The notes beneath the pieces were generated by a model, which was not told the origin of the DNA, did not search any database, and saw nothing but the letters and a program-made list of their open reading frames with translations. A stretch of 64,000 bases of DNA from contig NZ_SPMY01000045.1 in the NCBI RefSeq assembly GCF_012939955.1, positions 1-64,000 of the forward strand, given 5' to 3'. Both the position numbers and the translations under genes were made by a program. This document shows positions 909-58,247 of this stretch, one piece after another; the first letter of the stretch is position 1; each line of letters opens with the position of its first letter. Source of the stretch: Candidatus Accumulibacter phosphatis. GTDB taxonomy: Bacteria; Pseudomonadota; Gammaproteobacteria; Burkholderiales; Rhodocyclaceae.

Positions 909-1075
909 GCTTAGGCGATTTCTGTCAAAGAACATGCCATCTTGCTTGCCTTTTCGCCCGTCGTGTGTGTTACGACAACAGTTGCATAGTTCGGCTATGC
1001 GCCTGTTGTCGCGCCTTGAAGCCGACCGAAAATCCGGCGCAATCTGGTACGTTCTTTTCCGGCAATCGCCTAAGC
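909..1075. mobile_element. 167-bp fold-back MITE
   Basis: This non-coding element is an almost complete imperfect palindrome. Its outer ends are inverted repeats (GCTTAGGCGATT at 909 and AATCGCCTAAGC ending at 1075). The similarity continues inwards for about 30 bases and then more weakly. The centre is a strong hairpin, CGACAACAG..CTGTTGTCG, enclosing GCATAG-TTCGG-CTATGC, at about 973-1012. No reading frame is contained. This is the structure of a miniature inverted-repeat (fold-back) element mobilised in trans. No target-site duplication is obvious. The rest of 713-1187 shows nothing recognisable apart from an A10 run near 1127. Confidence 0.7.
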
Positions 1076-4608: not shown

Positions 4609-5907
4609 ATGAGAACACGACTCACCGGCTTGGTTCGGGTCTTGCGCCTGATCTGCCTGCTCACTGCCGCCGCTGTCTATTGCTCGCCAGTCGCTGCCGA
4701 TGCGTCGCTGTGGATCGACCACGACACCGCTGGCGAACGGCAGGTGCATTTGTACTTCTTCTGGACTCGGAGCTGCCCGCATTGCCAGGCGGCGACTCCG
4801 TTCGTCGAGGCGCTGTCGGCCCGCTATCCCTGGTTGCTGGTGCACAGTGGCGACGTCAGCAGCGACGCGGAAGCGGCCAAGGCGTATGTCGCCATGGCGG
4901 AGGCTCTGAGTCAAGAAGCGAGTAGCGTTCCAGCCTTTATCTTCTGTGGCCGCATGACCGTCGGTTTCGATCGGCCGGAAGGAACCGGGCACGCGCTGGA
5001 GGAAGGACTGCGCTTGTGTCGCGAAACGGGCATGCCGGCAACGTTTGAGCCCGCTGCGGCAATGGCGCGGGTGCCGAGTGTCGATCTCCCGTTGCTCGGC
5101 AGGGTGACGGCCGAGCAGCTGTCGTTGCCAGTTTTCACCCTGATCATCGCCGGACTCGATGCTTTTAATCCCTGCGCCTTCTTTGTGCTCCTATTCCTGC
5201 TTTCGCTGCTCGTCCATGCGGGCAGCCGCCGACGCATGCTGTTTATCGGCGCCGTCTTCCTCTCCTTCTCGGGCCTGATCTACTTCGTGTTCATGGCCGC
5301 CTGGCTGAACGCTTTCCGCTGGCTGGGCGAGATCGCGATGGTTACGACGGTGGCAGGGATGTTGGCGATAATCATCGCGCTGATCAACATCAAGGACTAT
5401 TTCTGGTTCAAGAAGGGGATCTCGCTGAGCATCTCCGACACGGCCAAGCCCAGGCTCTACCGGCACGTGCGCGGGCTGCTGCGGGCGGACAGCATGCCGG
5501 CGCTGACGCTCGGCACGGTTACCCTGGCGGTGGCGGCAAATTCGTATGAGCTGCTGTGTACCGCCGGATTCCCGATGGTCTATACGCGGCTGCTGACCCT
5601 GTCTGACTTGTCCCCCTGGCAGCACTATGCCTATCTGGGACTCTACAGTTTGGTCTATGTGATGCCGCTGATGATCATCACACTGGTGTTCACCTGGACC
5701 CTCGGCTCGCGCAAGATGTCCGAGAGCGAAGGGCGGTTCCTCAAACTGCTTTCCGGCAGCATGATGCTGGGGCTGGGCGTTCTGCTGCTTGTTGCACCGG
5801 CGGCGCTCAACGATCTGCGCGTGGCACTGGCCTTGCTGGCCGGCGCGCTTGGTGGTTCATGGCTGGTGCACCGGCTGATGTGTTCTCGAAAATCATTCTC
5901 GATCTAG
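4609..5907 (+). CDS. Thioredoxin-fold / DsbD-CcdA-type membrane protein
   Basis: About 432 residues. The ATG at 4609 begins a signal peptide or first membrane helix (LTGLVRVLRLICLLTAAAVY). Residues about 35-140 form a periplasmic thioredoxin-like domain with the active-site-like CPHCQ in FWTRSCPHCQ. From about residue 185 there are at least six transmembrane helices with the two DsbD/CcdA-type cysteines, in LDAFNPCAFFVLLF and YELLCTAGFP. This arrangement should carry electrons from cytoplasmic thiols across the membrane to the periplasmic CXXC. Order differs from E. coli DsbD because here the soluble domain is N-terminal. It lies 190 bases after the DsrE-like gene on the same strand. The substrate is unknown. 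Confidence 0.85.
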   Translation: MRTRLTGLVRVLRLICLLTAAAVYCSPVAADASLWIDHDTAGERQVHLYFFWTRSCPHCQAATPFVEALSARYPWLLVHSGDVSSDAEAAKAYVAMAEALSQEASSVPAFIFCGRMTVGFDRPEGTGHALEEGLRLCRETGMPATFEPAAAMARVPSVDLPLLGRVTAEQLSLPVFTLIIAGLDAFNPCAFFVLLFLLSLLVHAGSRRRMLFIGAVFLSFSGLIYFVFMAAWLNAFRWLGEIAMVTTVAGMLAIIIALINIKDYFWFKKGISLSISDTAKPRLYRHVRGLLRADSMPALTLGTVTLAVAANSYELLCTAGFPMVYTRLLTLSDLSPWQHYAYLGLYSLVYVMPLMIITLVFTWTLGSRKMSESEGRFLKLLSGSMMLGLGVLLLVAPAALNDLRVALALLAGALGGSWLVHRLMCSRKSFSI

Positions 5908-58175: not shown

Positions 58176-58247
58176 CTCCTCGTAGCACAATGGATAGTGC
58201 ACGCGCCTCCTAAGCGTGGGATACAGGTTCGATTCCTGTCGAGGGGA
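58176..58247 (+). tRNA. tRNA-Arg (anticodon CCT)
   Basis: All four stems form. The acceptor CTCCTCG pairs with CGAGGGG (one G-T pair), then TA, then D arm GCAC/GTGC with loop AATGGATA. The anticodon stem CGCGC/GCGTG holds loop CTCCTAA (anticodon CCT). The T arm is ACAGG-TTCGATT-CCTGT. The discriminator base is A and no CCA follows (CGA instead), so CCA must be added by the tRNA nucleotidyltransferase. It reads AGG codons. tRNA genes like this are common integration sites, and transposase and island-like genes do follow it. Confidence 0.95.

Follow-up and report, generated by a model that had tools for sequence, protein, structure and literature searches.

A fold-back MITE-type element of Candidatus Accumulibacter phosphatis belongs to a widespread family with differing ends and a conserved structured core

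Results

A 157-bp hairpin element without a gene of its own

We analyzed a window of 64,000 nucleotides from Candidatus Accumulibacter phosphatis (contig NZ_SPMY01000045.1, positions 1 to 64,000), in which a first-pass annotation had described positions 909-1075 as a 167-bp fold-back MITE. The hairpin was confirmed but its size was not. An alignment of 30 copies from the same genome gave the common ends GGCGATT...AATCGCC, which correspond to window positions 914-1070 and thus to an element of 157 bp. The outer GCTTA/TAAGC, 5 bp on each side, is flanking sequence that varies from copy to copy. The features are given below; the element is palindromic, and the + strand is the orientation of the core profile.

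911-913, no strand: left target bases TTA, unequal to the right ones here
914-1070, + strand: mobile element proper, a 157-bp imperfect hairpin with boundaries common to 30 own copies
914-939, + strand: left end module, 26 bp, with the GGCGATT tip and a subterminal AAAGAAC at 927-933; used as end profile
940-1044, + strand: core, 105 bp, with sequence and structure both kept in all 19 far loci
973-1011, + strand: central hairpin within the core, arms 973-989 and 995-1011
1045-1070, + strand: right end module, inverted, with GTTCTTT at 1051-1057 and the AATCGCC tip at 1064-1070
1071-1073, no strand: right target bases TAA, the right flank of the window copy

The terminal inverted repeats of the annotation are present at 909-945 and 1039-1075 (37 nt, 78% complementary), and the 17-nt arms of the central hairpin are 88% complementary. 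Its perfect sub-stems, CGACAACAG/CTGTTGTCG and GCATAG/CTATGC with a 5-nt loop, had been read correctly and are separated by mismatches. As proposed, the 167-nt strand folds end to end into one long imperfect hairpin (-77.3 kcal/mol, z -9.27), with none of 200 shuffles as stable. Open reading frames of at least 60 aa overlap the element, among them ones of 64 and 92 aa, but all extend past its ends and none is its own, in keeping with the claimed absence of coding capacity. At gathering score, Rfam 15 matched the element neither in the window nor in the other loci searched. The sole match in the window at that score is a tRNA gene at 58176-58247, and a Desulfobacterota hairpin (L130) showed sub-threshold matches to miRNA models.

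Copies, target sites and insertion

The host genome (5.04 Mb, 149 contigs) yielded 50 listed matches, comprising at least 31 full-length places, at least 10 partial ones and 9 reverse self-matches of the palindrome; these counts are lower bounds, as 40 of 57 candidates were scored. The element is therefore multi-copy, and single-copy occurrence, the finding that would have spoken against a MITE, is excluded. Compared with the consensus of 31 own copies, the window copy has six deviating positions. Among 101 genomes, five matched, own genome included; one of these matches is 23 bp long and probably due to chance, which leaves the own genome and three others of the genus Candidatus Accumulibacter. 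In a pattern search of 28 own-genus genomes, the element was mostly absent.

We then considered target duplications, using 85 distinct copies from Accumulibacter, Thiohalocapsa, Chromatiaceae, Sedimenticola and an unclassified gammaproteobacterium, which remained from 110 full-length places once duplicate places and those with less than 13 bp of flank were removed. An exact 3-bp duplication of the TAA/TTA type borders 67 of them, compared with a mean of 36.5 and a maximum of 47 in 200 shuffles, the shuffle counts being high because TWA itself is preferred. Equality never extends to four bases (0/85). C or T before the target and G or A after it are favored, giving a YTWAR consensus. The remaining 18 copies lack an equal duplication, and the window copy, with TTA on the left and TAA on the right, is one of them.

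Two occupied/empty site pairs show that the direction of change is insertion. At the first, the own-genome copy L005 adjoins a 45-bp mini-element; in A. meliphilus (L096) the right flank of L005 comes immediately after a related mini-element, with a single TTA. At the second, the A. meliphilus copy L049 corresponds to a single TAA in own-genome L037, with similar flanks of 75 and 59 bp, although the place is possibly paralogous. A candidate third site, in Thiohalocapsa, is left out of this count. Multiple copies without genes, terminal inverted repeats, 3-bp target duplications and empty sites together support the fold-back MITE reading. At 157 bp, below 500 bp, with no open reading frame of its own and hence no transposase gene, and with dispersed copies bounded by inverted repeats, this is a real fold-back MITE-type element, which the first-pass annotation had correctly recognized.

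By a heuristic gene call, 14 of 30 own copies start within 0-1 bp of an open reading frame's 3' end; the one copy flagged as intragenic is also counted among these 14. The TAA target overlaps stop codons, and insertion there would preserve a stop. Neighboring genes are convergent at 10 copies, divergent at 2, and in tandem at 9 and 7.

Smaller forms and another repeat were also noted. Mini-versions of about 45-60 bp are found in Accumulibacter (L005:1457-1501, also L032, L094, L096 and L104); the copy adjoining L005 is bordered by TTA at either end, and A. meliphilus holds a related counterpart of it. On contigs C295, C370, C427 and C633 of genome G104 lie 20-bp micro-elements, GGCGATTTCTGTCAATCGCC or GGCGATTGCCGGAAATCGCC, in which the tips are joined directly between TTA flanks; they would be either products of recurrent deletion or minimal movers. 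A separate Accumulibacter repeat, which measures about 123 bp and contains a palindrome of its own, GTGAGTCGCATRCGCGACTTTCACA, is both tandem and dispersed (L111:3002-3247 and 5135-5257, the left flanks of L011 and L015, a flank of L040), and the element copies L011 and L015 are located at its TAA/TTA end.

A wide taxonomic range

An end-pattern scan of the genome collection (62 stretches) located the element, mostly at 156-158 bp, in Thiohalocapsa ML1 and PL23b, two Chromatiaceae, Sedimenticola and an unclassified gammaproteobacterium, and in a 149-bp version in Methyloprofundus. One Chromatiaceae genome holds 309 forward and 309 reverse end matches and may therefore carry about 300 copies. 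End matches in a cyanobacterium, Woesebacteria, Nitrospinaceae and Salinivirgaceae had no second end and look like chance. A covariance model built from 21 copies (alignment A1), with at most seven candidates scored per genome, matched 30 of 398 Pseudomonadota genomes, own included, and 16 of 213 genera; six of the 30 are uncertain (best E 7.6e-7 to 1.8e-4). Single copies on plasmids and phages, and viral contigs scanned with five strict patterns, gave nothing useful, and a typed core pattern, too strict as it proved, had one match over 307 loci.

From this range we drew a far sample of 19 loci in 19 other genomes, representing 11 genera and 8 families by database labels. A sequence-only profile matched all 19 (E 6.8e-21 to 1.6e-8), while shuffled or reversed loci gave no match at E up to 10. 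The alignments begin at profile positions 14-31 and end at 127-148, and so exclude the tips of the element.

The core is conserved while the ends differ

To locate the conserved part, we used the core (940-1044) and the left end (914-939) as separate profiles at E up to 0.01. The core matched 19/19 far loci and 0/25 Desulfobacterota loci, and the left end 0/19 and 10/25, respectively, a contrast favored by the choice of the two samples through different parts of the element, the part missing in each being unselected. Two of the Desulfobacterota loci (L116 and L260) are one place, leaving 24 places with end matches at 9. Thus 11 other genera keep the core between different ends, and Desulfobacterota elements have similar ends around another core. 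The far elements retain GG...CC tips and an A-rich subterminal stretch, and 23 of 40 copies from the 19 genomes have an exact TNA duplication when the ends are allowed to shift, a count made without shuffle control. Altogether, the family is widespread and its structured core is conserved, and the window element represents one of its end-types. We make no claim on end differences among copies within one genome, which are partly an artifact of ends one base out of register. In Desulfonema magnum, 12 tandem units of 187 bp that are 98% alike occupy L268:3489-5730, and every unit contains a fold-back element whose ends resemble GGCGATT.

Paired changes occur between lineages and hardly among resident copies

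In the MAFFT alignment A1, 26 of 58 pairs are changed on both sides, against 16.1 in shuffles and 9-16 in slid controls, with a covariation of 0.193 against 0.108 and at most 0.086, respectively. In the far alignment A2, which was fitted to the structure and has two antisense rows, 46 of 58 pairs are changed on both sides (35.5 in shuffles, 20-26 slid) and covariation reaches 0.509 (0.158 in shuffles, at most 0.131 slid). The central hairpin (helix 5) has 11 of 17 pairs changed on both sides between lineages. Unconstrained RNAalifold on A1 recovered the apical hairpin but missed the long outer stem.

The 31 own copies present a different picture. They carry 90 one-sided changes at paired positions, of which 67 break the pair and 23 leave a standard pair, and no two-sided change; a slightly different structure gave one, with no measure above its shuffles. 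Copies in the own genome thus show no sign of hairpin repair or selection in place. Since covariation exists between lineages and almost none among resident copies, folding looks to be selected in the moving form and not at resident sites. Two further ideas were dropped: arm-to-arm copying as the cause of pairing within the genome, given only 0 or 1 two-sided changes, and an excess of substitutions in the 5' half (105 versus 45), as singletons number 43 versus 28 (p 0.10) and the excess reflects shared polymorphisms.

Search for a helper transposase

GG...CC ends are typical of IS5/PIF-Harbinger-type elements, and the family combines them with a 3-bp TWA/TNA duplication. PIF/Harbinger uses TWA targets and NuwaII C|TNA|G, both being related to bacterial IS5, and IS5 itself targets ANT, according to PMC4482050. 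From the TWA/TNA target, the transposase would be of the IS5/PIF-Harbinger class.

The annotation had suggested looking for a transposase with matching ends, and none was found among the loci examined, a search covering families PF01609 and PF13359 in genomes that are partly drafts. All 21 PF01609 matches of the own genome were inspected and none has the element's ends, and PF13359 had no match there. The same holds for 30 loci examined from 86 PF01609 matches in four genomes, for 17 stretches of Accumulibacter ACC003, and for all 18 PF01609 matches of ten far genomes. PF13359 (DDE_Tnp_4) matched 0 of 1 and 1 of 9 genomes, and several element-rich genomes have 0-1 DDE_Tnp_1 matches. Working from the ends, we searched 89 loci for pairs of GGCGATT-like ends that are spaced 30-2600 bp and bordered by equal TNA, and obtained nothing longer than 205 bp. 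Twenty stretches near single ends or divergent copies (A. meliphilus, ACC003, own genome) had no opposite end beyond about 170 bp, and 49 unpaired strong ends had no partner within 6 kb in the loci examined. In 20 stretches of Desulfonema magnum, short elements alone were recognized. Two candidates were rejected. At a transposase locus of ACC003 (L282:1489-2835), two ends with GG tips lie 1347 bp apart between equal TCA flanks; their sequence differs from that of the element's ends. A 1.47-kb end pair in G191 encloses an aspartyl-protease-like open reading frame and one without Pfam match, and no transposase.

Discussion

Beyond the account of the first-pass annotation, this analysis adds a wide range, a conserved core with differing ends and covariation at the level of lineages. 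That the core recurs between quite different ends among many distant relatives suggests a mobile element of swappable parts. We think it probable that this is a non-autonomous fold-back MITE that targets YTWAR-like sites, duplicates 3 bp there, is mobilized in trans, and combines a conserved structured core with exchangeable ends. A DDE transposase of the IS5/PIF-Harbinger type would act at the GG...CC ends and move the element in trans, without a gene of its own. The folded core would matter to the moving form or to source copies rather than to the resident site, the ends would diverge or be exchanged to suit the transposase at hand, and copies would decay after insertion. Counting against this proposal, the PF01609 and PF13359 loci examined yielded no transposase whose ends match. 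On the same side stand the few DDE_Tnp_1 and DDE_Tnp_4 matches, the 18 of 85 copies with unequal flanks, the outer stem missed by RNAalifold on A1, the fitting of A2 to the structure with its two antisense rows, and the choice of the far and Desulfobacterota samples through different parts of the element.

Integron attC sites are recognized as a fold on one strand. By analogy, movement might depend on the folded core of about 105 bases, the ends being an exchangeable, self-pairing adaptor that fits the resident transposase; the core, recognized as a one-strand fold, would then be the heritable identity of the family, passed between transposase systems across wide taxonomic distances. This stronger version is speculative, and we would not bet on it.

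An ordinary MITE, derived by internal deletion from one IS, the parent being lost or unassembled, with a range due to horizontal transfer and an incidental palindrome, appears unlikely. It would agree with one end-type being common to Accumulibacter, Chromatiaceae, Sedimenticola and others, with IS copies possibly missed in draft genomes, and with the lack of compensation among resident copies. However, simple deletion from a resident IS does not account for a core kept across genera in 19 of 19 far loci while the ends differ, and the two-sided pair changes between lineages and a constant length near 157 bp also disagree with it. Nor do we favor a functional RNA or terminator retained by the host at its sites and spread secondarily, which we hold to be very improbable despite the stable fold (-77.3 kcal/mol), the conserved and covarying core, and sites mostly at gene 3' ends by heuristic gene call. 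The main argument against such a resident role, and for one in mobility, is the uncompensated pair loss in resident copies, where 67 of 90 singly changed pairs are broken with 0 or 1 two-sided change; in addition, there is no clear strand bias relative to neighbors (tandem 9 and 7), the element has no Rfam match, and it is mostly absent from 28 own-genus genomes and present in 4 of 101 relatives. Movement of a REP-like element by the Y1 (RAYT) type of transposase would fit the palindromic, intergenic and high-copy character, but a 3-bp target duplication is present here, and Y1 transposition, as in REP/RAYT elements, is not known to make one; this is the least credible of the alternatives.

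Bacterial MITEs are usually viewed as genome-bound decay products of one IS. If the proposal is true, a conserved core, modular ends and lineage-level covariation would instead make them long-lived replicators with a selected fold. The element offers a direct test of whether folding matters in transposition, and it also marks genome plasticity, both in Accumulibacter and in purple sulfur bacteria.

In literature searches on MITEs of Accumulibacter, Thiohalocapsa, Chromatiaceae and sulfur oxidizers, on IS5-type MITEs and on conserved cores, the family was undescribed in titles and abstract beginnings, a coverage that mostly leaves aside subscription papers; the element's end and core strings returned unrelated titles only. 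Known systems could be compared by description. ERIC and Correia/NEMIS are imperfect palindromes present in many copies in several species, as is the element here, but ERIC is about 127 bp with a TA duplication, compared with 157 bp and a 3-bp duplication. PIF/Harbinger, NuwaII and bacterial IS5-type transposons are alike in duplicating 3 bp and in their target, TWA or C|TNA|G (PMC4482050), whereas no transposase was found for our element in the loci examined. The high-copy MITEs of Thiomargarita nelsonii also belong to a sulfur bacterium and their parent IS was not found, but that report describes them as having either direct repeats of 10 bp together with inverted repeats of 19 bp, or TATAG ends (PMC4853749). 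Thiohalocapsa PB-PSB1, a related host, has MITE-like stem-loop repeats, which that paper matches to the ends of named IS elements (PMC10907252). Finally, Chunjie of Geobacter is, as a review describes it (PMC10969869), likewise short, gene-less and intergenic, with inverted ends, duplications, size variants and partial copies; Chunjie is 178-235 bp long, whereas the element described here keeps its core across genera with other ends.
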